From assembly GCA_905370255.1 (NCBI GenBank), contig CAJPKC010000005.1, forward strand, positions 1 through 13,914: a DNA stretch of 13,914 nt, written 5' to 3'. Below are positions 99-13,914 of this stretch, piece after piece. How positions within the stretch are numbered: the first letter of the stretch is position 1; each line of letters begins with the position of its first letter. A program made the position numbers and the translations under genes. A model generated the notes under the pieces. That model saw nothing but the letters and a program-made list of their open reading frames with translations, had not been told where the DNA came from and did not search any database. Source of the DNA: Streptococcus oralis. GTDB taxonomy: Bacteria; Bacillota; Bacilli; Lactobacillales; Streptococcaceae.

Positions 99-332
99 TT
101 AGTATAGAAGAAAGCTCTCAGCACATGAGGAGAAATCATGAGGGATATTCTCAGTTGAATAAGTAAGAGTATAATCTACATCTCCAAAGTAGGAGTGGCC
201 AGTTCCAGCAGAAAGACCTTCATAGGTTTTATAACTGAATAGATCGACTACTTTGTTGTCGAATTTTTCCTGTTCTTCAAGTAATCCTGAGGAATAGACG
301 ACAACTTTAAAATCAAATAAGCTAAAAACGCT
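99..332 (-). pseudogene. 3' remnant of an unidentified host gene
   Basis: A 77-codon open frame on the minus strand ends with TAA at 99-101. Its composition is protein-like, with segments such as EEQEKFDNKVVDLFSYKTYE and GTGHSYFGDVDYTLTYS, but I do not recognise the family. No ATG, GTG or TTG start with a ribosome site exists in this frame, and an in-frame TAG stands at 333-335. A +1 reading from ATG at 340-342 (MILERF) would join this frame if one T were removed from the T run near 325-329, so a frameshift is one explanation. Truncation by insertion or decay at this end is another. It lies immediately left of the proposed element boundary and is probably host DNA. Confidence 0.5.
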
Positions 333-422: not shown

Positions 423-451
423 ATGACAATTTAATCAAAATATGATATAAT
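423..451 (+). promoter_or_regulatory. sigma-A promoter of the recombinase operon or leader RNA
   Basis: A -35 box ATGACA (423-428) and a perfect -10 box TATAAT (446-451) are separated by 17 bp. A TG at 443-444 gives the extended -10 element common in streptococci. The predicted start is near 458, leaving about 325 nt of leader before the first recombinase gene. Confidence 0.8.
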
Positions 452-457
452 ACAGAA

Positions 458-506
458 AAAGTAAAAATAACAAAAGTAACTTACAAAAGTAAAAGAAAAA
501 AAGTAA
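458..506 (+). repeat. four AAAGTAA iterations at the transcript start
   Basis: AAAGTAA occurs at 458-464, 473-479, 486-492 and 500-506, spaced 15, 13 and 14 bp. This regular spacing right at the predicted transcription start would suit binding by a repressor or by the recombinases. The second copy is also part of the long-range stem 466-482/604-620. The tract is A-rich, so the repeats may have no function. Confidence 0.4.
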
Positions 507-509
507 ATA

Positions 510-563
510 GATAGCCACGGCGGATATTCCTTTCATCGTTTAGAAGGAGTTGCTGTGGTTATC
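510..563 (+). promoter_or_regulatory. hairpin I of the leader, 13 + 7 bp
   Basis: Outer stem 510-522 with 551-563, bulge GAT at 523-525, inner stem ATTCCTT (526-532) with AAGGAGT (544-550), loop TCATCGTTTAG (533-543). The inner stem hides AAGGAG, a strong ribosome-binding sequence placed 5 nt before GTG at 555. Loop bases ATCGTT (535-540) could pair with AACGAT (641-646), the first bases of the terminator hairpin, giving a possible pseudoknot that would compete with termination. Confidence 0.6.
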
Positions 564-632
564 GTTGTTGCTGAGCTAATTAATTGCTCTTATTACTTAG
601 ATGAAGTTACTTTTATTATTGAATTAATTTAA
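555..632 (+). CDS. possible 25-codon leader peptide
   Basis: GTG at 555-557 follows AAGGAG (544-549) by 5 nt and opens 25 codons to TAA at 630-632. The peptide is hydrophobic (starts MVIVVAELINCSYY). It sits between hairpin I and the terminator-like hairpin starting at 641, which is where an attenuation peptide would be. Its ribosome site is inside the hairpin I stem, and its codons overlap the 604-620 pairing arm, so ribosome position could change the folding. The same frame is open upstream to 507 without a start, so chance cannot be excluded. Confidence 0.35.
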   Translation: MVIVVAELINCSYYLDEVTFIIELI

Positions 633-640
633 ATAATAAT

Positions 641-724
641 AACGATCAATGAAAGTACTCATCGATATTCCCTTTATGCAGTTTAGAGCACAAAGGAAAA
701 TGGTACTGATTTGATCGTTTTTTT
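641..724 (+). terminator. terminator or attenuator hairpin before the first recombinase gene
   Basis: AACGATCAA (641-649) pairs with TTGATCGTT (711-719), AGTAC (654-658) with GTACT (703-707), CAT (660-662) with ATG (700-702), and CCTTTATGC (671-679) with GCACAAAGG (688-696) with one mismatch, loop 680-687. Seven Ts (718-724) follow. The stem is long and interrupted, unlike compact terminators, but the base stem followed by a T run is typical of one. It would stop most transcripts before the gene at 784. Confidence 0.6.
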
Positions 725-783
725 GTGTATTGACATCATAAAACACAGTCAGAACCTTCAGTCATATTAAACAAGGAGATAAC

Positions 784-2052
784 ATGAGATTTGTTGTATA
801 TAAACATTCACTAGTTTTAGGTGATAACAACATCGTGACAAAGCAATTTATCGTTCTGAAGCACGATGACGGCAACTTACAATTTACTGATTTTCATCGT
901 TATGTTAAATCTACTTCAAGAATCAAGTCTATTTCAGATGATGGGAATAAACGCTTTTCTTACGTTGTTAAGTTTCTAAATTTTATATTTGGTACTTCTG
1001 GACTTAAAAGTATAGATCAACTTACACTTGAAATGGTTAGAGAATTTTTTACGCTTTATGGATTATCTCAGTTACCAGGAGATAGAGAAAAAAGAAAGAA
1101 AAGCACCGTTGAAAAATGCGTAAATGCAGTTCTTGACTTCTTAACTCTTTATTTAAGTGAGCGAGAGGGAAAGGCTAAGTTAAAAGCAGAAGAATTGTAT
1201 TCTACGACAACTTTTACGAATAGTAGAGGACGGGTTATAAAGCGTAAAGAACCAAATTTTGAAATATACGTAAATGATAGCAACACTGAGAAAGCTATTT
1301 TTCGTGATATGCCAAATAGTGCTTTTGAGATGTTATTTTCTCACATAGCACACTATCATAAAGATCTACTCATGGTTGTGGCCTTGGGAGCCTTTGTTGG
1401 CTTAAGACCATCAGAAGCATGTAATGTAAGACGTGAAGATAGTCCTCTAGGGCCAGGTATTTTGTTTCACCAAAGTGATGGGCAAGTATTTAAGATTGAG
1501 ATCGATCTACGAAAAGAAATACCTCTCCGAAGCGATTTAAAGCCAACTGGACGAATTAAAAAGGAAAGACTTCAAGCAGTACCTTATATCTTCTTGGAGG
1601 TCTTTTTAGACACTTATAATGACTATATGAGTTATCTGGAAGGTAAGAAGTATGAGAAGGATTATGGACCTTTAAATCTTAACAGACGAGGAAAAGCATT
1701 ATCATACGATGTGTACTATCAACGATTTCGTAAGATTATTCGCGACGAAATGATCCCAATCTTCTTAAAATCTGATGATGCAGAGGTTGTCTTTTTTGGG
1801 CAGCTTTTGCAGGAGCATAATATTTCCCCACATATTTTCAGACACTGGTACACGACACAGTTAGTATTATCTGGGGTTTCTGAAATAAGTGAGCTTATGT
1901 CAGCAAGAGGTGATAAATCGCCTGAGAGTGCTTGGGTTTATCTACAAAACAAAGGAGAAATCGCAAAACAATATGGTCAAGTTAATAATGGTGTTTTTGA
2001 CTATATGAATTGGCGAGCAAATGAACTTTTTGGTGATAAGTTAGAAAGGTAA
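784..2052 (+). CDS. tyrosine recombinase, first of the trio (Tn554 TnpA-like position)
   Basis: Probably cuts and joins element ends during excision and integration. The 422-aa protein has an N-terminal DNA-binding (SAM-like) region over about residues 50-140 and a C-terminal catalytic domain. Box I arginine is R208 (GLRPSE), a likely beta-hairpin lysine is K259 or K260 (GRIKKER), box II is H350-x2-R353 followed by H354, and the tyrosine is Y386 (ESAWVYL). The residue normally His or Trp before the tyrosine is D377 (RGDKSPES), which is unusual for an active enzyme. AAGGAG at 773-778 lies 5 nt before ATG. It is the first gene of the operon, behind the structured leader, and 3 nt separate it from the next gene. 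The family assignment is firm; its activity without partners is uncertain. Confidence 0.85.
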   Translation: MRFVVYKHSLVLGDNNIVTKQFIVLKHDDGNLQFTDFHRYVKSTSRIKSISDDGNKRFSYVVKFLNFIFGTSGLKSIDQLTLEMVREFFTLYGLSQLPGDREKRKKSTVEKCVNAVLDFLTLYLSEREGKAKLKAEELYSTTTFTNSRGRVIKRKEPNFEIYVNDSNTEKAIFRDMPNSAFEMLFSHIAHYHKDLLMVVALGAFVGLRPSEACNVRREDSPLGPGILFHQSDGQVFKIEIDLRKEIPLRSDLKPTGRIKKERLQAVPYIFLEVFLDTYNDYMSYLEGKKYEKDYGPLNLNRRGKALSYDVYYQRFRKIIRDEMIPIFLKSDDAEVVFFGQLLQEHNISPHIFRHWYTTQLVLSGVSEISELMSARGDKSPESAWVYLQNKGEIAKQYGQVNNGVFDYMNWRANELFGDKLER

Positions 2053-2055
2053 TGT

Positions 2056-3906
2056 ATGACTTATTCAATTAAATCTTTGATCGAAAATCTGTTAAGTGAA
2101 CTCGGAAAAAACGATATACAGTATAAAGGCAAAATTAGTAAGTTTTTAGTTGATAACAATTGGTTTAATATTGAGATTGATTTGGATAACTATTCTATCT
2201 CAGATAAAGATGCTCAATTATTAATAGAAAAAATAACCAATTATCTTCTTGGACCAACTGGTTTAGCAGGAATTCAGCCTATATTTAAACAAAAATTCCC
2301 ATTAACTTACAAATATTTTCAGCAATACTCAGAAGATAGCAACTTATCTAAGGAAAACATGTTTTATGTTCAAGATTTTCTTGCTTTTTATCTTAAAAGA
2401 GATTTATTTCTCTGTAATGATAATGAGATTGAATTGTTGGTTGAAGAAGCAGTATATGCACTTGAAAAGCAAAAAGGCGAAGTTTTTATTGATTTTTTAA
2501 AGTGGTTAATGAATAAAATGAGATGTAACTATCACAAAAGATATGAATTTACACCTCGATACACATTAGAACAGGAGACTAACGCTTATGAGTTAGACGA
2601 ATATTTAGAATTACTGTATTTTCTTTTTAATGACAATTACATTAGAAAAGAAGATATGCTTTATAAAGCAGCAATCTCAAAAGACTACGCAGATACCTGG
2701 CTATTTCTAGCACTTCATTTTATATGTGCGCTACGTGGAACAGATTTAGAACAACTTGGACATCCACAACTTCCTAGAACACCGAAAGAAGTTCTAAAAT
2801 CAGTTAGAAGTGGTAATTGGAGTAGCAGTGAGGCAAGAAGAACTCTTTTAAGTATTACAACTCGTTTAACTTATTTAAATATTACTCCAAACAAAACAAA
2901 GCGAACTAAAAATATTAGTCAGATTAAATTTCAGGTCCCTGAGAGTTGTCAGGTATTGATTGGAACGTTGTTGGCTATCTGTGAAGCTCATTATCAGTTG
3001 AATAAAGATAATAATGATGAACCTTTAATTCGACAAATAAAAGAATATAAACGAATTAATCGATATATGGGGAAAGAAATTGGAGACTTATTTCTTGAAA
3101 GGAATTTTAGTTCTAGATCTGCAAATAAATCCTATCTTCAAACTGTTGCCATGTTAGCAGATGATGTTTTGCAAGAAAAATCTGAGTTAAATATTAAAGG
3201 CTATTTTTTAGCCGCATTAGCCCGTAGCCATAAAGGTTCATTCGATGAATTTGCACAAACTACAACAACGTACCTAAAAGATGCCCAACTAAGCCAGCTT
3301 AAACCAGAAATGGTTGCGAGAGAACTATTTGAACGAGGTGTTTTATCTATGATTCCATCAATGATCCTGACGATTGTAACTAGAGGAAAGTATAAAGAAT
3401 TAAGTCCTAGTCAACAGACTCAGATGATTAAACAGTTAGATTTGACACCAAATGAGATTGAAAAAACATTGGCTTTAAGCATTCAGGCAGAAGTGAAATC
3501 GCAAAAGGCATTAAAGATTTTGGTAGAAGAAGAAGCAGAGCCTAATCAACTTCTTACTATTTGTCATCGTATAGGAAACGGTGAAGCCTTCTCAAAACAA
3601 GGTGAAAGCATGTGTCTTTTATCTGCGCTTGGAAAGATTTGTCCATATGACGATAGGCAACATTGCATCGGTTGTCATTATGAATTACAAACGAAATCTA
3701 CTTTATTGTTATTAGTAGGAGAATTCAATCGTTTGAACAAACAATACTCTAGAGTTCGAACTGATTTAGAAAAAGGTAAAATTCGGAGTATTTTAGAAGA
3801 ACAAATAAAACCTTGTTTAACTGAAATGTTGCAAGCTTTATGCGAGCAATATGGAGATGACGTGTTACATGATTACGAAGAAATAATAAAGGAGTTAATA
3901 AATTGA
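2056..3906 (+). CDS. divergent tyrosine-recombinase-like protein, second of the trio
   Basis: A 616-aa protein whose size and place suit a Tn554 TnpB-like partner, but whose catalytic signature is eroded. An ALRGTDL segment (R227) resembles box I. R354 (SRSANKSY), H392 (ARSHKG) and Y406 (TTTTYLKD) could correspond to box II Arg, His and the nucleophile, but the spacing is irregular and no HxxR is present. The last 115 residues hold cysteines C503, C520, C529, C537 and C540 (ICPYDDRQHCIGC), a probable zinc site. The start follows the previous stop by 3 nt with AGAAAGG (2043-2049) upstream, and its stop overlaps the next start. It may be structural or accessory in a recombinase complex. Assignment to the recombinase fold rests partly on context. 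Confidence 0.65.
   Translation: MTYSIKSLIENLLSELGKNDIQYKGKISKFLVDNNWFNIEIDLDNYSISDKDAQLLIEKITNYLLGPTGLAGIQPIFKQKFPLTYKYFQQYSEDSNLSKENMFYVQDFLAFYLKRDLFLCNDNEIELLVEEAVYALEKQKGEVFIDFLKWLMNKMRCNYHKRYEFTPRYTLEQETNAYELDEYLELLYFLFNDNYIRKEDMLYKAAISKDYADTWLFLALHFICALRGTDLEQLGHPQLPRTPKEVLKSVRSGNWSSSEARRTLLSITTRLTYLNITPNKTKRTKNISQIKFQVPESCQVLIGTLLAICEAHYQLNKDNNDEPLIRQIKEYKRINRYMGKEIGDLFLERNFSSRSANKSYLQTVAMLADDVLQEKSELNIKGYFLAALARSHKGSFDEFAQTTTTYLKDAQLSQLKPEMVARELFERGVLSMIPSMILTIVTRGKYKELSPSQQTQMIKQLDLTPNEIEKTLALSIQAEVKSQKALKILVEEEAEPNQLLTICHRIGNGEAFSKQGESMCLLSALGKICPYDDRQHCIGCHYELQTKSTLLLLVGEFNRLNKQYSRVRTDLEKGKIRSILEEQIKPCLTEMLQALCEQYGDDVLHDYEEIIKELIN
3888..3905 (+). promoter_or_regulatory. ribosome site for a TTG start overlapping the upstream stop
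   Basis: AAAGGAG (3888-3894) is 8 nt before TTG (3903-3905). The upstream TGA is 3904-3906, so start and stop share TTGA. No better in-frame ATG lies nearby, and the strong ribosome site supports the TTG start and translational coupling. Confidence 0.7.
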
Positions 3907-5573
3907 ACAATCAAGCTAAACTTTTTAAAATTGAAAATTATTTTGAAACTTTTGACCGTGATTGTGTTCTGCGAGCAAAAGAAGTTTTCGATGACTATTT
4001 TGATAAAGGAATTATTCTAAGTTACGATTTTGATCATAAGAAATGGGAAACTACAAATGAATATGCCAATATTAGCCTGTTTTTTAACATTTATGAATTT
4101 CAATATAGGAGATTTTATCAATCATTTTTTCAGTTGTCTTATAAGGAATTTATCAATTACTTAAAAAGTTTTATTGTTTTCTCAATGAAACAACATGTTT
4201 TAAAAACTTTACAGCTATTTCTAATGGATATTAAACAAATTATTAAAAATACAACCAAAGATACGTTTTTAGATTTAGAAAATATTTCTGTAAAATTTCC
4301 TGGTTTATGTATTGACTTTTTCTCAAATCTTCCCTGTTCAGATGATAGTCAACTAAATCAACTATTGGAGCAATTAGATAATAAATTAACTATCAACCTT
4401 CAAAAAAAGCAGAGGTCAAAACAGCAAAGACAATTAGCGCAATTTCAATCCTATTTTACTTTTAATGACATTTTAAATGATTATTGGTCTCAAACATTAT
4501 CTAAAAAAGAGCGTCTATTTTATTATCCATTGTATCTCTGGTGGCAGATTACAGCGATTTTACCTTTAAGGCCAAGAGAATTTCTTTTAATACAAAGAAA
4601 CTGTTTGACCGAGAAAGATGGAAAATATTTTCTTACATTAAGGAGAAATATAATCAAAGGAAGGGATCGACTTGTTGCACATAAAATTTCTGAAGATTAT
4701 ACTTTGAATACTTATGAAATTACTAATTCATTAGCTTCTGAAATAAAGACTTACCTCAAACTTACGGAAAATAATAATTCTACTAAATTAGATACATTAT
4801 TTGTGACTGATCCTCATTATAACCGTTGGGGTCGTCGAACAGGTGTTAATAACCGATTTTTAACTTACACTAATCTCAATACTATTTTGAGGTATTTTTT
4901 TAATGAGATTATTTCTCAAAAATACGGTTATCAAGTTAATTATTTTAGTTTTCCAGCTAGATTAGATGAAAACGAGATTAATTTGATTCATATTGGGGAT
5001 ACGAGACACATTGCAATGATCAATTTAATTGCAGAAGGGGCTAGTCCTGTTACAGCTATGCTTTTAGCTGGTCATGAAGATGTGACAACTTCATCTCACT
5101 ATTTTTCAAATTTAAGCCAATTTATTGAATGTCGTAGTTATCAAATGTATCGTAAACTAACGAGTAAGAATACGAATTACACCATAAGTAAGAGACAGCC
5201 ATTTTATACAGCACAAGGACAATACATCACTTTAGAAAATAAAGGACGGTGTTACTCACCCCGCTTTGCGAAAGGTGATTATTCAGATTGTCTGAAAGTT
5301 ATTAGTGAGCATGCAGAACTAGGTGCTTGTACGAGCTGCCCTTTTTACCGTAAAGCAGGTAAAGATTATTTTTCAATGGATAAAACATTTAAAAAGTCAG
5401 TTGATGAAAAAGCTATGGTTGTAGATGAAGCGATTAGAAAAGTTAGGCAAGGGAAAGGTCATATTGAAGATATTGGAGAAGCTTTGTTGAAATTAAAAAC
5501 AGTTAGCAATACCTATCAAGATTACTTAAATGCTAAACAACTATCTTTAGAGGAGAATAAGTCTAATGGCTAG
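3903..5573 (+). CDS. tyrosine recombinase, third of the trio
   Basis: A 556-aa tyrosine recombinase with the best catalytic geometry of the three. R223 (LPLRPREF) is box I, K252 (IIKGRDR) is a likely catalytic lysine, and box II has R368 (GDTRH), H391 (LAGHEDV) and Y400 (SSHYFSNL). The spacings R to H 23 and H to Y 9 are canonical. The first His of HxxR is replaced by G365. After the catalytic domain comes C450-x12-C463-x12-C476-x2-C479, a probable zinc site resembling that of the preceding protein, then a helical tail. It starts at TTG, overlapping the previous stop, and overlaps the next gene by 8 nt. It likely acts with the other two at the element ends. Which reaction each performs cannot be told from sequence. 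Confidence 0.85.
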   Translation: MNNQAKLFKIENYFETFDRDCVLRAKEVFDDYFDKGIILSYDFDHKKWETTNEYANISLFFNIYEFQYRRFYQSFFQLSYKEFINYLKSFIVFSMKQHVLKTLQLFLMDIKQIIKNTTKDTFLDLENISVKFPGLCIDFFSNLPCSDDSQLNQLLEQLDNKLTINLQKKQRSKQQRQLAQFQSYFTFNDILNDYWSQTLSKKERLFYYPLYLWWQITAILPLRPREFLLIQRNCLTEKDGKYFLTLRRNIIKGRDRLVAHKISEDYTLNTYEITNSLASEIKTYLKLTENNNSTKLDTLFVTDPHYNRWGRRTGVNNRFLTYTNLNTILRYFFNEIISQKYGYQVNYFSFPARLDENEINLIHIGDTRHIAMINLIAEGASPVTAMLLAGHEDVTTSSHYFSNLSQFIECRSYQMYRKLTSKNTNYTISKRQPFYTAQGQYITLENKGRCYSPRFAKGDYSDCLKVISEHAELGACTSCPFYRKAGKDYFSMDKTFKKSVDEKAMVVDEAIRKVRQGKGHIEDIGEALLKLKTVSNTYQDYLNAKQLSLEENKSNG

Positions 5574-6279
5574 AAAGAAATCAATTTCTGATGATGAATT
5601 GATTCATTTGTTTGAACAGTATTTAATTTCCCAGTGTTCCTGTGATTTAAGCTTGGTAAAAATCCCTCGGTTTGGTGACTATGTTAGGAATAATGGCTAT
5701 CAAAATGTTGCGGATACAACCATTAGACGTAATAAAAGATTCAGGGATTTTTTAAAAGAAAGTGAAATTAAATACCAAGATGAAAATTATGAAGCTGTAA
5801 TTACTTATAAGACCATAGATCCTGACAATTTTATGGCAAAAAATCGTGCTCCAGGTGCTATGAAAAGAGCATTGGTGGAAATTAGCCAATACTACAAGAA
5901 AATAGCAAACATTGCGGCCAGCTATAAACAAGAAGCAGATAAGTTACGTAGTTTAAATTCTGAACTACAGTCAACTAATGAAGATTTAAAACAGAAGCTA
6001 CAAAGAGAAAATGAGTTAAGTGATGAGAATCAAAAACTATTACAAATAATCAAAACAAGTGTCTATCCAGAAATTGCGAATGAGCTTTTAAAAGAAGAAG
6101 GATTGTTAAAATATTCTCAAAAGGTTATCAGTGAGGATTTCCTAGCAGACAATATCATCACCGCTGATTCAGAAATAGATTTTCATTCTGGTGGTCTTAT
6201 TGAACAAGAAAATCCTCAAAAATCAACTAAAGTGGTTTCTATTAAAAACTTACTAGACAGCAAAACTAATTATAAATGA
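5566..6279 (+). CDS. TnpC-position coiled-coil protein
   Basis: A 237-aa hydrophilic protein. Residues 1-70 are compact and basic, with a helix-turn-helix-like stretch (IPRFGDYVRNNGYQNVAD, then TTIRRNKRF) that may bind DNA. Residues about 100-165 form a heptad-like coiled coil rich in E, K, L, N and Q. The C-terminus is polar. In Tn554 the small coiled-coil TnpC follows the two recombinases and influences transposition efficiency and orientation; position and architecture suggest a similar accessory role here, though this protein is about twice as long. AGGAG (5551-5555) precedes ATG by 10 nt, and the start lies inside the end of the recombinase gene. No enzyme motif is visible. The role is inference. 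Confidence 0.65.
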   Translation: MARKKSISDDELIHLFEQYLISQCSCDLSLVKIPRFGDYVRNNGYQNVADTTIRRNKRFRDFLKESEIKYQDENYEAVITYKTIDPDNFMAKNRAPGAMKRALVEISQYYKKIANIAASYKQEADKLRSLNSELQSTNEDLKQKLQRENELSDENQKLLQIIKTSVYPEIANELLKEEGLLKYSQKVISEDFLADNIITADSEIDFHSGGLIEQENPQKSTKVVSIKNLLDSKTNYK

Positions 6280-6287
6280 GGAAAGAA

Positions 6288-8135
6288 ATGAACAAGAAAG
6301 TTAAAGATAATCCAGCTATTTACATGTACTGGGATCAAAAACGAAATGTTCTTGACCCCAAAAAATTATCGTCAAATAGTTTAAAATATGCCTATTGGTC
6401 TTGCCCTTATTGTCAACACCATTGGGAAGCGAAAATCATTGATGTGCAGCTTGACAGTTATGAATATCTTAGGTGTTGCCCCCATTGTGGATTAGGTGAA
6501 CGTTCCATTGATGAAAATGAGAGCGTCCTTCAGGTTTATCCCGATTTCAGAAATTATATAAACTACAGCATTGAGCGAGATGAAGAATTAGATGAGAAAC
6601 TTCTTACCTTGCCGTTCAATAGTAAAAGAAAATTCAATTTTAAATGTCCGACGTGTCAATTAAGTTGGAAAGATTCTGCGACAAATAAGAGGTTATTTCA
6701 ACTAACAAGTGGGGATTTATTTCATTTTGGCTGCAATGAAACTTCCTATCATTGCGATTACAAATCAATTTATCCAAATTTAGCTAAAATCTATAGCGAA
6801 CATTTAAACAAATTTAAATTTAACGAACTGAAGCTGAGTTACAATATAACAGTACCTATCCATTGGGAATGTGATAAGTGTCATTGCAAATTTGAATTAT
6901 CTATTGATAGATTATTGAACCGAATTAAAAGAAGTGGTCATTACTGTTTGGAGTGTCATTCTTCATTTGAAGAGTTATTGGATAAAGATTTTGATGTTTC
7001 TCCTCTATCTTTTTTAAATTCTTCCATGCTCAAGGAGTGGTCTAAAAGGAACAATAATACACCTAATCAAGTTGATGTATTATCTAATGTTCATGTGTTA
7101 TGGGAATGTACGAATTGTCACGGAGAGTATTCATGCTCACTATTTGAAAAAACAGATAGGTCTTGTCCATTTTGTTCAAATAGAGAAAAACTTCAGGATT
7201 TTAATACACTAAATGAAACACATCCCTATTTGAGGGAATTTTGGGACCTCAGTAATGAAAGGGATTTTTCCGAATATTGGTTTAAGTCAAATAATGTAGT
7301 TAGTTGGGTTTGTCCTTGTTGTAAAATCAACTTTCAATGTAGCCCAGCCGAAATGATCAGTCGAACCGATTTAGAAAATCAAAACTTTCAAACATGTCCC
7401 AATCAATGTGACTGGAGGACTGAGGTATTTAAAAATAATATTTTCCTTAAAGAACCAAAACTCATCAAAGAATGGAGCGATAAAAATAAAATTCCTATTC
7501 ATTTATCTCAGACAACAATAGAAACGAAAAAATATTGGTGGGATTGTTCAAAGTGTCATGGGACATATTTATGTTCTATCCCAATTCGAAGAGAAGTTTC
7601 TCAGTGTTGTCCTTTCTGTAACAACGATAAGCCTCTGAATGGGTATAATACATTTGATTATTTGTACCCTGAACTAGCAAAATTGTGGGCACCAAATAAT
7701 AAAGTCTCAATAGATAGTTTTGTTCCATTATTAACTGAAAAAAGGTTTTATTTATGGCGCTGCAAAGAATGTAACTTCGAATTTCATGAGCGCTTCAGCA
7801 TTATATTAAATAAGTATTTAAATTCCGAGACAAAAGATCTTAAAGAAATGTGTCCATTTTGTGCAGAATTAAAAGAAAGACAAGATAATATCTCATTTGA
7901 AGATTTGATGAACGAGTGGGACTATCTTAACAATCTTATTCTAGGGGATCCAGAAAGAATCCCAAATAATACGCAATTAAGATTTTGGTGGATTTGTAAG
8001 AATAATCCAGAGCATCGTTATAGAATGGCTATTGTAGATAAGATTGCAAATGTAAAACGATCTATCGAGCCATGCATATTTTGTAAAGGGCGTAGACGAA
8101 AAAGAGAACATTTTGTTCCTTATAGGAAAATTTAA
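6288..8135 (+). CDS. zinc-ribbon repeat protein (DUF4379-like), about eight repeats
   Basis: A 615-aa protein built almost entirely of repeats of the form W-x-C-x2-C ... C-P-x-C. Eight can be counted, including WSCPYC, FKCPTC, WECDKC, WECTNC, WVCPCC, WDCSKC and WRCKEC; the last is degenerate (WICKNNPEH) but keeps C-IF-C. Several are preceded by a tryptophan linker such as EWSDKN, FWDLSN, LWAPNN or EWDYLN. This matches the probable zinc-ribbon family DUF4379 (PF14311), whose function is unknown. No nuclease, helicase or recombinase domain is fused. I chose ATG 6288 because AGGA at 6279-6282 is 5 nt upstream; ATG 6276, overlapping the previous TGA as ATGA, would add four residues. It is the last gene of the operon. 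It may bind DNA or RNA in recombination, or be cargo; nothing here decides. Confidence 0.75.
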   Translation: MNKKVKDNPAIYMYWDQKRNVLDPKKLSSNSLKYAYWSCPYCQHHWEAKIIDVQLDSYEYLRCCPHCGLGERSIDENESVLQVYPDFRNYINYSIERDEELDEKLLTLPFNSKRKFNFKCPTCQLSWKDSATNKRLFQLTSGDLFHFGCNETSYHCDYKSIYPNLAKIYSEHLNKFKFNELKLSYNITVPIHWECDKCHCKFELSIDRLLNRIKRSGHYCLECHSSFEELLDKDFDVSPLSFLNSSMLKEWSKRNNNTPNQVDVLSNVHVLWECTNCHGEYSCSLFEKTDRSCPFCSNREKLQDFNTLNETHPYLREFWDLSNERDFSEYWFKSNNVVSWVCPCCKINFQCSPAEMISRTDLENQNFQTCPNQCDWRTEVFKNNIFLKEPKLIKEWSDKNKIPIHLSQTTIETKKYWWDCSKCHGTYLCSIPIRREVSQCCPFCNNDKPLNGYNTFDYLYPELAKLWAPNNKVSIDSFVPLLTEKRFYLWRCKECNFEFHERFSIILNKYLNSETKDLKEMCPFCAELKERQDNISFEDLMNEWDYLNNLILGDPERIPNNTQLRFWWICKNNPEHRYRMAIVDKIANVKRSIEPCIFCKGRRRKREHFVPYRKI

Positions 8136-8165
8136 AAAACAGGTTCAAATTTGAACTTGTTTTTT
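8134..8165 (+). terminator. operon terminator
   Basis: A 32-nt near-perfect palindrome: AAAAAACAGGTTCAA pairs with TTGAACTTGTTTTTT with one G-U pair. It overlaps the stop codon of the zinc-ribbon gene and ends in a T run. The A and T tails make it usable in both directions. It closes the element operon. Confidence 0.85.
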
Positions 8166-8178
8166 ATCATAGATTTTT

Positions 8179-8310
8179 ATAAAGTACATTATTTTAAAAG
8201 ATTGTATTTTTAGTTTTCAAGTAGATAGTGTACAGAATTTTAGTATGCGAAAGATTTAGTTTTCACGGGAATAAAGTACATTATTTCGAGAAAAATTTTT
8301 TCCAGTTAAC
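8179..8310 (+). repeat. 46-bp-period repeats at the right element end
   Basis: ATAAAGTACATTATTT is exact at 8179-8194 and 8271-8286. Exactly midway, 8225-8242 holds a 14/18 match to the same motif (ATAGTGTACAGAATTTTA). A second block, TTTAGTTTTCA, recurs at 8209-8219 and 8255-8265, also 46 bp apart, and the third unit has TCCAGTTAAC in this phase at 8301-8310. The layout of phased motifs leading to the putative crossover site suggests recombinase-binding sites. Confidence 0.6.
8299..8307 (+). repeat. candidate right attachment core (attR)
   Basis: TTTCCAGTT, repeated at 393-401 in the same orientation. It falls in the third phase of the 46-bp repeats, where the inner units carry TTTAGTTTTC, so it lies where a recombinase core would be expected. 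It is 21 bp from the left end of difSL. Confidence 0.4.
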
Positions 8311-8328
8311 CTGAATAAACCCTATAAC

Positions 8329-8359
8329 ATCTTTCCGAAAAACTATAATTTTCTTGAAA
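8329..8359 (+). other. difSL chromosome dimer resolution site
   Basis: A 31-bp sequence with arms CTTTCCGAAAA and TTTTCTTGAAA around ACTATAA matches, from memory, the difSL sites used by XerS in streptococci and lactococci, which lie just upstream of xerS. It marks the replication terminus. XerS acts here with FtsK to resolve chromosome dimers (established for this system). Confidence 0.85.
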
Positions 8360-8382
8360 AATATATCTGGCTATGCTATACT
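8354..8382 (+). promoter_or_regulatory. xerS promoter overlapping difSL
   Basis: TTGAAA (8354-8359), 17-bp spacer, TATACT (8377-8382) with extended -10 TG at 8374-8375. The -35 box is the right edge of difSL, so bound XerS could block its own transcription (inference). Confidence 0.75.
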
Positions 8383-8400
8383 ACTAGTATAGAAAGATTT

Positions 8401-8413
8401 GGAGAAAAACATG
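8401..8413 (+). promoter_or_regulatory. ribosome site fixing the xerS start
   Basis: GGAG (8401-8404) lies 6 nt before ATG (8411-8413). An in-frame TTG at 8399 overlaps this site and is not a credible start. Confidence 0.75.
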
Positions 8414-9481
8414 AAACGCGAGATCTTATTAGAACGGATTGATAAACTCAAACAAGTCATGCCCTGGTATGTATTAGAATATTATCAATCGAAACTGGCC
8501 GTTCCATACAGTTTTACGACCTTGTACGAATACTTAAAGGAATACGATCGATTTTTCACCTGGGTTTTGGAATCTGGTATATCGGATGCTGACACCATGG
8601 CCGAGATCCCTTTAGACGTTCTGGAGCACATGACCAAGAAAGACATGGAATCCTTTATTCTTTACCTACGTGAACGTCCTCTGCTCAATGCCAATACGAC
8701 AAAAAACGGGGTTTCCCAAACAACCATTAACCGTACCCTTTCGGCACTTTCTAGTCTTTATAAGTACTTGACTGAGGAGGTTGAAAATGAACAAGGTGAA
8801 CCTTATTTCTACCGTAATGTCATGAAGAAGGTTGCTACCAAGAAAAAGAAAGAAACCTTGGCGGCTCGAGCTGAAAATATCAAGCAAAAACTCTTTTTAG
8901 GGGATGAAACAGAAGGTTTCCTTAACTATATCGACCAGGAGTACCCTCAAACACTCTCAAATCGCGCCTTATCCTCTTTTAATAAGAATAAAGAGCGAGA
9001 TTTAGCCATTATCGCACTCCTTCTTGCCTCTGGTGTCCGTCTCTCTGAAGCCGTTAACCTAGACCTTCGTGACCTCAATCTTAAGATGATGGTGATTGAC
9101 GTCACTCGAAAAGGTGGAAAACGAGACTCAGTCAATGTTGCTGCCTTTGCTAAGCCTTATCTAGAACAATATCTCGCTATTCGAGACAAACGTTACAAGA
9201 CAGAAAAGACTGATACAGCTCTCTTTCTGACCTTGTATCGAGGTGTTCCAAACCGGATTGATGCTTCTAGTGTTGAAAAGATGGTGGCCAAGTATTCAGA
9301 AGACTTCAAAGTCCGCGTGACACCCCACAAGCTTCGCCATACATTAGCAACTCGTCTCTATGATGCAACCAAATCACAGGTTTTGGTCAGCCACCAGCTA
9401 GGACATGCTAGCACCCAAGTTACAGACTTATATACGCATATCGTTAATGATGAGCAGAAAAATGCCTTGGATAGTTTATAA
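8411..9481 (+). CDS. xerS: tyrosine recombinase XerS
   Basis: XerS resolves chromosome dimers at difSL in cooperation with the FtsK translocase during division, replacing the XerC/XerD pair in streptococci. The protein is 356 aa, the usual length, beginning [15 protein letters not shown]. Residues about 15-150 form the N-terminal DNA-binding domain. The catalytic domain has R210 (SGVRLSE), a lysine in TRKGGKRD, H306-x2-R309 (PHKLRHT), H332 (QLGHAS) and Y341 (DLYTHI), all intact. The gene follows its target difSL by about 50 bp and has its own promoter, so the neighbouring insertion has not removed its control signals. A bidirectional terminator follows. It is unlike the element recombinases in sequence and is a core host gene. 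Confidence 0.96.
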
Positions 9482-9483
9482 AA

Positions 9484-9505
9484 TTACATAACGTAAATTA
9501 TGTAA
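9484..9505 (+). repeat. short perfect inverted repeat after xerS
   Basis: TTACATAA (9484-9491) and TTATGTAA (9498-9505) are exact reverse complements around 6 nt, directly after the xerS stop. There is no T tail, so it is more likely an operator-like palindrome or RNA hairpin than a terminator. Confidence 0.5.
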
Positions 9506-9518
9506 TATATTAGTTTTA

Positions 9519-9557
9519 AAAAGAGCGATAGATTTTTTGAATGTCTACCGCTCTTTT
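9519..9557. terminator. bidirectional terminator between convergent genes
   Basis: AAAAGAGCG (9519-9527) pairs with CGCTCTTTT (9549-9557), and TAGA (9529-9532) with TCTA (9544-9547). A on one side and T on the other serve both xerS (plus) and the convergent gene ending at 9565 (minus). Confidence 0.85.
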
Positions 9558-9564
9558 ATACTTT

Positions 9565-10206
9565 CTATAAAAATTCGATCCAATAATTACGGTGTGGCTC
9601 AATAATGACTGGTTTTCCCCAGAATGATTTTAGATAGGCCAAGTTTGCAGGGGTGACAGGTCTTTTTTCACCATTGAACTTCTCTGCACTCTCTTCCGTT
9701 AGAAAGCATTTAACTGCTTCATATGGTGTACCATCGCTCGCTATTCGATCAATTCCTAAATAAGCAATTTCATCACCGGCTTTTGGAAAATCTGTAAATA
9801 GTTTACCAATAAAATAAACCGTCTTATCTTTCATTAATTCATAAGCCTTACTATTTTCCAGTCTGTTATTCGCTGCAGCGTACATAATACAAAAACTATC
9901 CACAATATCTTTCAAAGGCATTAATTCTTCTTTGCTGACTATAATTTCGTCGGGAGCAAGTCCACCAATGATTAAGTTTTCATAATGAGGTTGCTGGATG
10001 ATATTATCTAAAGCCATTCCTAATGGTAGTTTGACAGCTTGATAGCCTAATGGTTCGAGCTCTTGCTTTTTCTGGTCAAGGTGTTCTTGTGTAATACTGA
10101 CATTCAAATCATAAGGACTTGAAGATTGTTGCTTTCTAAAAAAAGCCACGACTATACGATCTAACTGTTCAAATAGACCAAGATTTTCCACTGGAACTCT
10201 CATCAT
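9565..10206 (-). CDS. uncharacterised 213-aa protein
   Basis: A soluble protein without signal peptide or membrane segment; I do not firmly recognise the family. The segment ENLIIGGLAPDEIIVSKEEL and the alternation of short strands and helices faintly recall the SseB N-terminal fold, but that is a weak impression. The C-terminus is rich in aromatic residues (SFWGKPVIIEPHRNYWIEFL). ATG at 10204-10206 follows GGGG by 10 nt; a second ATG immediately downstream is an alternative start. The gene has its own promoter (10244-10272) and converges on xerS, sharing its terminator. Codon and base use fit the host side of the window rather than the element. Confidence 0.75.
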   Translation of the reverse strand: MMRVPVENLGLFEQLDRIVVAFFRKQQSSSPYDLNVSITQEHLDQKKQELEPLGYQAVKLPLGMALDNIIQQPHYENLIIGGLAPDEIIVSKEELMPLKDIVDSFCIMYAAANNRLENSKAYELMKDKTVYFIGKLFTDFPKAGDEIAYLGIDRIASDGTPYEAVKCFLTEESAEKFNGEKRPVTPANLAYLKSFWGKPVIIEPHRNYWIEFL

Positions 10207-11382: not shown

Positions 11383-12372
11383 TTATTCCACCACTGCCTC
11401 AGCAATTTCTTCTGCAGTGATACCTGCAAAGTAACGACCTAGATTAATGGTTTGAAGGGCTTTGAGGACGTCTTCACGTTCGTATTTAACGCCACGAAGA
11501 ACATCTTCTACTGCTGCAACATCTTCGATACCAAAGAAGTCACCGTAAATCTTGATATCTTGAATTTTTGATTCAATGACATTAGCGAAGATTTCCACCT
11601 TACCGCTTGTGAATTTTGTGCCACGACGGACATTGAATTCAGGAGACTTCCCATAGTTCCAATCCCAGGTACCGAACTTGGTTTCCTTGATCCGGTTGAT
11701 TTCAGCCAATTCTTCATCCGAGAAGACATATTCTGTCATCTCAGGGTATTCTTTCTTCATGTAGTCCAAAAGTAGGTCACGGAACTCTTCAACCGTGATT
11801 TTTTCTGGCAACTCATCGATGATATTGGTCACACGAGCGCGAACGGATTTAACCCCTTTAGACTCAAACTTGTCTTTAGATACCTTGAGAGCATTAGCAA
11901 GGACAGACAAATCCACGTCAAAGAGAAGGCAACCATGGTGCATGATACGTCCGTTGATATAGGCTTGTGCATTCCCACAGAATTTCTTGCCATCAATCTC
12001 TAAGTCGTTACGACCCGTGAATTCAGCCTTAACCCCAAGTTGAGCCAAGGTGTTGATCACAGGAGTTGAGAAGCTCTTGAAGTCAAAGGCCTTGTTTTCA
12101 TCTTCTTTTGAAATGATGGTGTAGTTGAGGTTGTTCAAATCGTGATAAACAGCTCCACCACCACTGATCCGGCGAACCACTTCAATCCCATGCTCCCGAA
12201 CATAGTCACGGTTGATTTCTTCGATGGTATTTTGGTGACGACCAACGATAATCGAAGGTTTGTTAATCCAAAGAAGGAAGATTTGATCCTCATCCAAGAG
12301 GTGCTTAAAAGCATACTCTTCTAAAGCAATATTAAAAGCAGTATCATTTGAATAATTAATAATGTATTTCAT
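11383..12372 (-). CDS. lplA: lipoate-protein ligase A
   Basis: A cytoplasmic enzyme that activates free lipoate with ATP and attaches it to lysines of lipoyl domains in 2-oxoacid dehydrogenase, acetoin dehydrogenase or glycine cleavage proteins. The 329-aa length is normal for a two-domain LplA. RRISGGGAVYHD (residues 67-78) is the lipoyl-AMP binding motif, and GRNDLEIDGKKFCGNAQ (120-136) carries the catalytic lysine K130. The C-terminal accessory domain follows from about 240. It lies downstream of lpdA on the same strand, so its products serve the same complexes. Ribosome signals are weak (TTGGAA at 12378-12383), and I see no convincing promoter in the 229-bp gap. Expression may come partly by readthrough from lpdA. 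Confidence 0.95.
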   Translation of the reverse strand: MKYIINYSNDTAFNIALEEYAFKHLLDEDQIFLLWINKPSIIVGRHQNTIEEINRDYVREHGIEVVRRISGGGAVYHDLNNLNYTIISKEDENKAFDFKSFSTPVINTLAQLGVKAEFTGRNDLEIDGKKFCGNAQAYINGRIMHHGCLLFDVDLSVLANALKVSKDKFESKGVKSVRARVTNIIDELPEKITVEEFRDLLLDYMKKEYPEMTEYVFSDEELAEINRIKETKFGTWDWNYGKSPEFNVRRGTKFTSGKVEIFANVIESKIQDIKIYGDFFGIEDVAAVEDVLRGVKYEREDVLKALQTINLGRYFAGITAEEIAEAVVE

Positions 12373-12398
12373 AGTAATTCCAAAAATTCGTTTTATAA

Positions 12399-12417
12399 AT
12401 CCTACTCAAAGTAGGAT
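12399..12417 (-). promoter_or_regulatory. short hairpin upstream of lplA
   Basis: ATCCTACT (12399-12406) pairs with AGTAGGAT (12410-12417) around CAA. It lies 27 nt before the lplA start, so it would be in the lplA leader. It has only a weak T tail on either strand. Its role is unknown: operator, mRNA stabiliser or chance. Confidence 0.45.
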
Positions 12418-12470
12418 GAGAGCTATTAAGAAATAGTTAAATTTCACTTGAATTTTCTGAAGTAGTAAAA

Positions 12471-12500
12471 AGAAATGTAACGATAACTCGTTACATTTCT
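12471..12500 (-). terminator. terminator downstream of lpdA
   Basis: AGAAATGTAACGA (12471-12483) and TCGTTACATTTCT (12488-12500) are perfect complements around TAAC. On the minus strand the stem runs into TTTTTAC, so it should end the lpdA transcript 100 nt past the stop. Confidence 0.8.
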
Positions 12501-12503
12501 CGG

Positions 12504-12531
12504 AAAAATTGAGACAAGTGGCTCAATTTTT
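12504..12531 (-). terminator. second hairpin in the lpdA-lplA gap
   Basis: AAAAATTGAG (12504-12513) pairs perfectly with CTCAATTTTT (12522-12531) around 8 nt. It is symmetric in A and T tails and abuts the terminator at 12471-12500, so together they may form a tandem terminator. Confidence 0.65.
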
Positions 12532-12601
12532 AGGCATGGAACTCTAAGAGAGGTCGCTGCCGTCCGTACTACTTTAAGAAAATTTAGTTGAAAGAATAGT
12601 A

Positions 12602-13914
12602 TTATTTCTTCTTAGGTGAGTGAACTGCCAAGCCAAGTACATCCGCAAAGGCTTCGTACATCACTTCTGAGAAAGTTGGGTGACCATGAATGGTCTTGAG
12701 CATTTCTTCCACAGTGATTTCCATCTCAATGATGGTTGAAGCTTCGTTGATCAATTCAGCTGCTGCTGGACCAATGATATGAACCCCAAGAACTTCACCG
12801 TATTTCTTGTCTGCAATGACTTTAACAAAGCCTTGAGCCGCATCTGATGCAATAGCACGACCGTTCGCCGCAAAGTTAAACTTACCAATTTGAACGTCGT
12901 ATTTCTCACGAGCTTGTTCTTCTGTCAAACCAACAGCCGCCACTTCTGGAAGTGTGTAGATGGCTGCAGGAGTCAAGTTCAATTTTGCAACAGCATGATT
13001 TCCTTTAAGGGCATTTTCAGCGGCTACTTCACCCATACGGAAGGCAGCGTGAGCCAACATCTTAGTACCGTTGATATCACCTGGTGCATAGATACCTGGA
13101 ACAGAAGTTTCCATGTATTCGTTAACCTTGATACGACCACGGTCTAATTCAAACTCGACTTCACCGATTCCTTCAAGATCTGGAACACGACCGATTGAAA
13201 GAAGAGCTTTGTTTGCGATGATATCATCTTTTCCTTCAACCTTGATACGGAGTTTGCCATCTTCTTCAATGATTTCTTGCAATTTCGTATCCGTCAAGAT
13301 GGTCATACCCTTGCGTTCAAGGATCAAGCGAAGGTTCTTAGATACTTCCGCATCCATAGCTGGAACAATGCGGTCCATCATTTCGATGACCGTTACTTTT
13401 GAACCAAAGGTCATAAAGGCTTGACCAAGTTCGATACCGACAACCCCGCCACCGATGATCACGAGACTTTCTGGAACTTCGTTCATATCCAAGATGTCAT
13501 CACTCGTCATGACAAGGGATGATTCCATACCTGGAACGTTAATCTTGCTGACTTTTGAACCACCAGCAAGGATAATTTTCTTCGTTTCAAGCAATTCAGA
13601 ACCATTTACCAAGACATTCTTATCTTTCGTAATGGTACCGATACCCTTATGAACATCCACTCCGTAGCTACGAAGAAGTCCTGCAACACCACCAACAAGT
13701 GTATTAACAACTTTAGATTTAGTTTCTAAAAGTTTGTCCATATCAACTGTGAAATTAGGATTTTCAATTACGATACCACGATTTGCTGCATGACCGATAT
13801 TCTCGATAATTTCAGCGTTGTGAAGGTAAGTCTTAGTTGGGATACATCCGCGGTTCAAACAAGTTCCACCAAGTTCAGATTTCTCAACAAGAGCAACCTT
13901 ACCACCTAATTGAG
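12602..13914 (-). CDS. lpdA: dihydrolipoamide dehydrogenase (E3), N-terminus beyond the right edge
   Basis: An FAD enzyme that reoxidises dihydrolipoamide with NAD+ in 2-oxoacid or acetoin dehydrogenase complexes. The reading frame continues past 13914: before the apparent start at 13858 (a TTG that is an internal leucine) the frame reads KVALVEKSELGGTC, joining into the redox motif GGTCLNRGCIPTK. The visible part has the NAD-binding motif GGGVVGIELGQAF, the second FAD motif with PGDINGTKMLAHAA, and the C-terminal HGHPTFSE dimer-interface His-Glu pair, so it looks intact. The missing N-terminus should contain the first FAD motif and, in many streptococci, a lipoyl domain. It is followed by a terminator and by lplA, which supplies the lipoyl groups used by its partners. 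Confidence 0.95.
   Translation of the reverse strand, partial: QLGGKVALVEKSELGGTCLNRGCIPTKTYLHNAEIIENIGHAANRGIVIENPNFTVDMDKLLETKSKVVNTLVGGVAGLLRSYGVDVHKGIGTITKDKNVLVNGSELLETKKIILAGGSKVSKINVPGMESSLVMTSDDILDMNEVPESLVIIGGGVVGIELGQAFMTFGSKVTVIEMMDRIVPAMDAEVSKNLRLILERKGMTILTDTKLQEIIEEDGKLRIKVEGKDDIIANKALLSIGRVPDLEGIGEVEFELDRGRIKVNEYMETSVPGIYAPGDINGTKMLAHAAFRMGEVAAENALKGNHAVAKLNLTPAAIYTLPEVAAVGLTEEQAREKYDVQIGKFNFAANGRAIASDAAQGFVKVIADKKYGEVLGVHIIGPAAAELINEASTIIEMEITVEEMLKTIHGHPTFSEVMYEAFADVLGLAVHSPKKK

Follow-up and report, generated by a model that had tools for sequence, protein, structure and literature searches.

What is a heavily structured RNA of about 270 nt doing in a Streptococcus mobile element, where it separates a promoter-like site from the recombinase genes? 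The window that we analysed, a stretch of 13,914 bases in all, holds five co-directional element genes (784-8135), after which comes the host gene xerS (8399-9481). Judging from sequence comparison, we suggest that the RNA is probably a brake on movement of the element. The features on which the discussion turns are collected in Table 1.

Table 1. Features of the window, with positions in the 13,914-base stretch
Feature	Position	Strand	Remarks
HTH/S24 repressor gene fragment	120..308	-	matches residues 80-142 of the L015 protein
Extended -10 promoter (candidate) of RNA and operon, ATGACA-17-TATAAT with TG before the -10	423..451	+	scan
Four AAAGTAA-type repeats, 5' part of the RNA	456..506	+	three supply the 5' strands of P1, P2 and P3
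Structured RNA, putative transcript, modelled as 452-724	458..724	+	fold, covariation, profile model
P1, closing helix, 466-482 with 604-620	466..620	+	single mismatch, C471-A615
P2, 487-492 with 593-598	487..598	+	
P3, 502-506 with 568-572	502..572	+	no double-change pair
P4 hairpin	510..563	+	13 bp plus inner 8 bp
P5 hairpin, 573-576 with 586-589	573..589	+	
P6, terminator-like 3' hairpin, base 641-649 with 711-719	641..719	+	base paired in 15/15 distinct A3 rows
Seven-T run after P6	718..724	+	
59-nt spacer with ribosome-binding site AAGGAG	725..783	+	scan: no + strand promoter-like pair
Gene 1, tyrosine recombinase, 422 aa (IntA/TnpA-like)	784..2052	+	Pfam match weak, under its cut-off
Gene 2, 616 aa, without HxxR signature (Tfp-like in position and size)	2056..3906	+	
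Gene 3, large tyrosine-recombinase-like protein, 556 aa	3903..5573	+	R, HxxR(H) and Y blocks; no Pfam match
Gene 4, 237 aa, middle looks helical (Srap/GinD/TnpC-like position)	5566..6279	+	
Gene 5, DUF4379 zinc-finger protein, 619 aa	6276..8135	+	
dif-like motif beside xerS, just beyond the right end of the element	8331..8361	+	our placement
xerS, host gene	8399..9481	+	

An earlier, sequence-only reading of this locus had described an extended -10 promoter, a 17-nt long-range pairing with one mismatch, a hairpin of 13 + 7 bp and a long 3' hairpin followed by seven Ts ahead of the first recombinase gene. All of these were found where they had been placed; the one correction is to the hairpin now called P4, whose inner helix has 8 bp and not 7. 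The promoter-like site agrees with the consensus at 11 of 12 positions with a 17-nt spacer. Since the scan reports five such sites in 1-2000 where shuffles give 7.3, the match by itself proves little; the -10 is present in 14 aligned RNA-type loci and in the members of the folding set (the sequence of L009 begins inside the promoter, leaving its -35 outside). The conserved unit begins at about 417-423, where homology to the differently flanked L012 and L014 starts, and continues through the gene. Within the RNA, the C-A mismatch of P1 is present in 8 of 14 sequences, and L011 has one additional 15-nt repeat unit in the 5' part. A simple terminator scan returned no sites, but it accepts loops of 3-8 nt only and is blind to hairpins with internal loops such as P6. 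We note that the 5' arm of the terminator could form a local 7-bp hairpin (644-665, AUC-AUGA/UCAU-GAU) before the 3' arm exists; this sequence is kept, bar loop changes, in the recombinase-linked A5 members and is not seen in L095 or L107.

The element had been described as Tn554-type, which is imprecise, since it has four recombination-type genes with the second lacking HxxR, as do the SE elements in the available sections of PMC10214605. The blocks of gene 1 are invariant over 21 aligned proteins; in all seven aligned proteins, gene 2 keeps the R block and lacks HxxR and gene 3 keeps the R, HxxR and Y blocks. No informative Pfam or NCBIfam hit was obtained for genes 2-4, and sequence searches of solved structures gave no match to genes 1 and 3. 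According to the same sections, SE elements have the gene order IntA-Tfp-IntB-Srap and are hosted by Gammaproteobacteria. The element shares with them the order and sizes of the genes, a preferred site and a core of four genes in which a non-catalytic large protein stands second, an assignment made by order, size and signature blocks; kinship to known Tfp and Srap proteins, a 6-bp footprint and C/C' terminal motifs would be the further marks of an SE element. Tn554 is similar in having two tyrosine recombinases, a small accessory protein and a target preference (PMC10214605, same sections), but its set of TnpA, TnpB and TnpC alone, with no Tfp counterpart, is not what is found here, where gene 2 lies between two recombinase-type genes. 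GInts, hosted by many diverse bacterial groups according to the portions of PMC5385486 available, have the non-catalytic protein third, whereas here it is second. By sequence features, then, the gene order resembles that of SE elements more closely than that of GInts or Tn554. The available descriptions of SE elements and GInts (PMC10214605, PMC5385486) mention no upstream RNA.

At the right end, xerS follows the element in 14 of the 15 regions with a known right flank (window, L003, L005-L008, L011-L013, L015, L044-L048). The exception is L047 (G123:C4:638000-657999), from a genome with two copies, which has no xerS alongside within the DNA examined. The streptococcal dif-like motif is named dif_SL in the accessible part of PMC2731167. 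Repeats of the type TTTAGTTTTCAC...AATAAAGTACATT (window 8179-8310) recur at the right ends of related elements, and similar ones adjoin xerS in L050, L052 and L060, from genomes outside the recombinase hits; they are possible recombinase sites or footprints.

So much pairing was held to be hard to explain by chance, and folding bears this out. The RNA has a minimum free energy of -75, against -44.8 ± 4.45 in 200 dinucleotide shuffles (z -6.79, 0/200 as stable), and lies 30 kcal/mol under a GC regression (sd 8.0; 456 overlapping same-size segments from both strands of the window); in raw energy some GC-richer segments of the window are lower than the RNA. No 273-nt segment that was folded has a lower raw energy than the region 12361-12693, between two host genes (-88 kcal/mol). 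Three other members, L032, L095 and L107, also beat their shuffles (z -3.7, -5.0 and -4.5).

Covariation in homologous elements, on which the sequence-only reading had staked its claim, was found. In a MAFFT alignment of 14 RNAs including the window (A2; near-copies such as L003, L008 and L016 were left out), both sides have changed, in one sequence or more, in 14 of 82 pairs, compared with 2.9 ± 1.3 in shuffles (0/500 as high) and 2-6 for slid structures, and 93.4% of cells are paired as against 33-56% for a slid structure; further pair types show no excess (31 vs 31.4 in shuffles). A second alignment (A3; 19 matches, 15 distinct rows, including the divergent L095) was fitted to the structure and is therefore biased towards it; it has 22 double-change pairs against 4.7 ± 1.8 in shuffles and 3-9 for slid structures, with 41 further pair types against 34.7. 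These A3 double changes fall in P1 (6), P2 (1), P4 (5), the inner helix of P4 (4), P5 (2) and the apical part of P6 (4), with none in P3 or in the base and middle of P6; the base of P6 is never broken, and one of its pairs goes from U-A to U-G. Identity to the window, compared in five members, is lowest in P4 (35-100%) and stands at 83-98% in the 5' repeats, 82-100% in the 3' arm of P1 and 74-92% in P6. The alignments thus indicate that the RNA is conserved through compensating mutations. A coding reading was rejected: when 11 members were translated in their three forward frames, the positions of stops and frame-shifting indels varied from member to member and none of the frames stayed open throughout, the one long open frame over the 3' part of L014 not being kept in other members.

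Inverted repeats could instead be DNA sites for the recombinases, with the look of an RNA incidental. The structure is close to the element's left end, by eye it has the 10-mer TAACAAAAGT in common with the upstream regions that carry a repressor gene (see below), and the opposite strand folds nearly as well (-70.3), the last being expected because inverted repeats must fold on both strands. However, the paired cells of A2 include 90 G-U against 31 A-C, which favours an RNA of the + strand, a promoter-like site and a T-run frame the structure, and this architecture is seen again in an island whose genome yielded no match to these recombinases. We therefore consider the DNA-site explanation extremely improbable.

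The distribution of the RNA bears on what it serves. A contig scan turned up the recombinase at 15 loci, with 78-100% identity and Streptococcus in every title, and by alignment the RNA lies upstream in every one except L015. In the genomes of the family the recombinase is present in 22 of 335 (27 matches), a set that overlaps with the contig loci, several genomes being the same strains. Beyond one genus, none was found among 395 order-level and 398 phylum-level genomes (E up to 1e-30); recombinase-like proteins of 52-58% identity occur among the best 120 of 639 matches. A model built from A2 (R1) and searched in the 335 genomes gave 21 matches in 19 of them, 20 of which end 29-62 nt before the recombinase gene in the same direction. 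The RNA, as hairpin and T-run, is upstream in 18 of the 22 recombinase-bearing genomes; three of the others (G071, G210, G317) are of the repressor type discussed below, and G081 has a gene without its 5' part, adjoining what we take to be an IS200-type transposase gene.

The remaining R1 match, in G209 (L095; 74 bits, E 5.5e-13), is outside the training set. The recombinase was not found in this genome; the RNA copy ends 43 nt before a 347-aa open frame, the product of which has one relative in the protein search, and the region contains two genes that presumably encode tyrosine integrases. Retraining with this match (R2, E up to 1) added five weak matches. One of them, L109 in G029, falls inside a coding gene, presumably for an oxidase-like protein, and was dropped as false. 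The other four (a third group, L107, L108, L110 and L111, from G305, G306, G312 and contig 22 of G209) show by eye the layout of the RNA: an extended -10, AGTAA-type repeats, paired arms, a AACGATCAATGA...TTGGTCGTTTTTTT hairpin and a small gene next. That gene, close behind, belongs to a 92-aa family (from the ORF lists in L107 and L111, by eye in L108 and L110). The promoter scan does not pick up the promoter of L095 or L107, where an extended -10 is read by eye; the 9-of-12 pair that it gives for L107, where the gene begins, is at chance level.

Models trained without the third group score it at 18-20 bits, against noise of 21.1 bits in the same loci, and the window shows no similarity to it in the 5' domain. 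We accept its four loci as probable members, on sequence grounds, because L107 shares neighbours with L095 and because they are matched better than in shuffles by the 5' domain of L095 and by the 3' hairpins of L095 and L032. L107 (G306) and L095 are 48% identical in the upstream gene, 43% in the downstream domain and 81% in the regulator gene that comes next. For the 3' hairpin, no shuffle in 300 scored as high when L032 was compared with L107 or L111, or the window with L107, and one in 300 did so for the window and L111; for the 5' domain of L095 against the third group it was again 0/300. A model of the 3' part was trained on the third group, so that its high scores for that group are circular. 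In 155 genomes of the genus it ranked 30 matches after the 12 known members, none scoring more than 31 bits; no fourth group with the layout was seen in the nine of these weak matches that were read. The 92-aa domain found after the RNA in islands (L098:10374-11417, L107:1802-2080) has 22 relatives, and those with species names are hypothetical proteins of S. suis.

The five copies, one secure and four probable, in genomes where the recombinase was not found speak against the suggestion that the RNA acts with the recombinases. A rival explanation is an independent small RNA acting in trans: a terminated 267-nt product would pair with host or element mRNAs or bind a protein, and the downstream gene would be fed by leakage. 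Copies that precede genes unrelated to the recombinase, the frame of a promoter and a default terminator, and the sequence similarity of the 3' hairpin across all groups speak for it. Against this, a gene in the same direction begins shortly after every one of the 21 model-found and the four probable copies, and perfect matches to the element and xerS targets are not clearly longer than in shuffles. The targets were the att/dif region, the right end, the left flank, the recombinase start, xerS and the operon (60 shuffles, 15 for the operon). The best shared words, a 9-mer at the recombinase start (reached in 13/60 shuffles) and a 12-mer in the operon (4/15), led us to reject a guide or antisense role towards these targets. 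We regard a trans-acting small RNA as possible though somewhat unlikely.

Relatives outside chromosomes were sought, and none from phages, plasmids or viral contigs is credible. Plasmids gave no match to the RNA region, the recombinase or the L095 RNA. In a phage blastn search (E up to 1) the RNA of the window matched 109 records, the 20 listed covering at most 21% of the query at E 0.3, and L095 matched one (9% of the query). Viral contigs contained no recombinase relative; a terminator pattern picked out eight stretches there and a longer-gap pattern none. We take these eight as chance, as none matches the whole-RNA model; the 3' model gives them 24-27 bits, but a pattern had selected them, and real members matched on the reverse strand score 17-29 bits. 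As the sequence-only reading had proposed, Rfam was searched: release 15 has no match at gathering score for the window, L095, L107, L111 or L032, and for 380-800 it gives six sub-threshold hits (E 1.4-3.9) far under their cut-offs. No record of the RNA was found in Rfam 15 or the open-licence literature; a microbiome survey (PMC8040213, available sections) may include it, its candidate RNAs running into the thousands and 28 of these lying near domains of integrases, sortases or phages.

A further pointer to function comes from elements without the RNA. In L015, L033/L045 and L037/L046 its place is taken by a divergent gene for a helix-turn-helix and peptidase-S24 protein. HTH_3 and Peptidase_S24 are above the Pfam cut-off in L015 and L045, and L046 is an 82% full-length match to L015. 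This pair of domains is that of the SOS-cleavable repressors (LexA/CI-like). In L015 the next gene after that for the repressor encodes a Y-family (ImpB/MucB) polymerase (7756-9162 and 9174-9857, - strand), which fits a link with SOS. R1 finds no RNA in the three repressor-type regions, all of which have a full-length S24 gene, and a complete S24 gene is absent from the examined flanks of 16 RNA-type sequences, several of them near-copies (window, L002-L008, L010-L014, L044, L047, L048). RNA and S24 repressor are thus mutually exclusive in the sequences examined. The upstream regions of the two types also look alike in their promoters, a likeness judged by eye in AT-rich DNA that we do not use as proof.

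The recombinase genes show how close the two types are. In a tree built on the initial 786 nt of the gene, with 22 rows, 18 of them distinct, the RNA-bearing L010 is sister to the repressor-bearing L037 (93% identity over 786 nt, support 96/95), and L032 (RNA) is sister to L033 (repressor; support 98/96). Well-supported branches force three changes on the repressor type. As it has only three rows, this is the maximum possible and a clustering test is empty (500/500 shuffles as low), and the direction of the swap is not fixed.

Several RNA-type elements adjoin the wreck of a repressor gene. A piece of the S24 gene lies in the immediate left flank of 10 of the 16 (window, L002, L003, L004, L007, L008, L010, L011, L047, L048) and only at a distance in L005 and L006, and four have none. 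In the window, the roughly 80 nt after the fragment (323-403) are 83% identical to the right-end region of L013 (L013:17794-17875). This flank gives the impression of an older element that was cut down.

In L045 all five element genes are open, alongside an S24 repressor gene and with no match to the RNA. This tells against a place for the RNA in the recombination machinery, and the suggestion that it works together with the recombinases or the zinc-ribbon protein is not supported. It looks like a transferable control module rather than a recombination cofactor.

From the structure, its conservation, its position, the alternation with the repressor and a spacer in which the scan finds no second promoter, we lean towards the following model. 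Transcription would start near 458 from the promoter of the operon, and the nascent RNA would fold into P1-P5. By default, the intrinsic terminator P6 would end most transcripts near 724, giving a short RNA, while a minority would read through P6 into the mRNA of the recombinase operon. Mobilisation would thus be held low and be raised by whatever alters read-through, and the RNA would do the job that the HTH/S24 (SOS-type) repressor does in some sister elements. The order of parts agrees with this: a promoter-like site stands before a terminator-like hairpin, and none is seen on the + strand of 725-783, so the operon seems to need either read-through of P6 or transcription from outside.

The sequence-only reading had offered a small RNA or an attenuator. 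A conserved, element-borne RNA with promoter and terminator features in a fitting position is supported; a self-contained switch of the riboswitch type is not. In 10/10 members, folded without pseudoknots, the terminator's 5' arm finds no partner in an alternative fold, and loss of the base of the terminator would cost 8.6-14.3 kcal/mol; no fold sequesters that arm at modest cost. On the folding models, termination is likely the default outcome and any switch must be external; it would come from a protein, another RNA or the state of the polymerase.

Could the hairpins be a passive 5' insulator that only blocks outside transcription into the recombinase genes? Comparable terminators at the 5' ends of insertion sequences are described in section 13 of PMC2965389, in the portion available, which cites work on Tn10 and IS200, and here too the hairpin directly precedes the operon. 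However, P6 is downstream of the element's own promoter-like site, and insulation accounts for P6 and not for the 5' domain, whose compensatory changes would be superfluous. A plain insulating terminator is disfavoured for this reason, and we find the insulator very unlikely. The same portion of that section terms terminators upstream of transposases 'mobile attenuators' and notes that related ones precede unrelated genes. Our RNA is similar in placing a terminator-like element, here with predicted termination, directly before a mobility gene, with related copies before unrelated genes; it differs in the 180-nt covarying multi-helix domain that precedes the terminator and in having its own promoter-like site.

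Two phage systems, in the available sections of PMC4825925, offer precedents. IsrK, of the Salmonella prophage Gifsy-1, is made from one promoter as a short RNA and a read-through mRNA, the former acting on the latter in trans. A short RNA ending at a terminator with read-through into mobile-element genes is shown for IsrK and would apply here by analogy; the likeness that we draw is one of transcript layout, and here it is recombinases that lie downstream. In the satellite phage P4, the untranslated leader (CI RNA) acts as the repressor by premature termination, a role that is shown for the phage and conjectural here, and the processing and the seqA/seqC targets are those of the phage.

An immunity RNA of the phage P4 CI type would replace the S24 repressor: the short RNA of a resident element would pair with the leader of an incoming or sister element while it is being made, and so force termination. 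The RNA does occupy the repressor's place, the two arms of P1, complementary over 17 nt, could pair in one molecule or between two, and helix P4 diverges most between elements, as a specificity region would. On the other hand, the P1 arms are nearly invariant among recombinase-linked members and no processed product is known, and we judge such immunity to be decidedly unlikely. A broader proposal, which we put forward tentatively and think unlikely, is that these RNAs of 255-290 nt are a new streptococcal family of mobile RNA immunity switches that replace an SOS-type repressor, are exchanged as a module between elements and islands, and use their complementary arms and a variable hairpin for specificity to act in trans on the leaders of sister elements. 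Mobile elements with RNA leaders are known; for a large covarying RNA that swaps with an S24 repressor we found no description in the open-licence literature.

The read-through model, which we prefer, is open to a natural experiment, because closely related operons (L010 and L037, 93% over the 786 nt compared) carry an RNA leader in one case and an SOS-type repressor gene in the other. If control by the RNA is true, mobility triggered by DNA damage would have been swapped for mobility under another trigger. In the RNA-bearing islands of streptococci, nearby genes presumably encode surface adhesins. The signal to which the RNA responds could therefore bear on when streptococcal islands move or express their genes.
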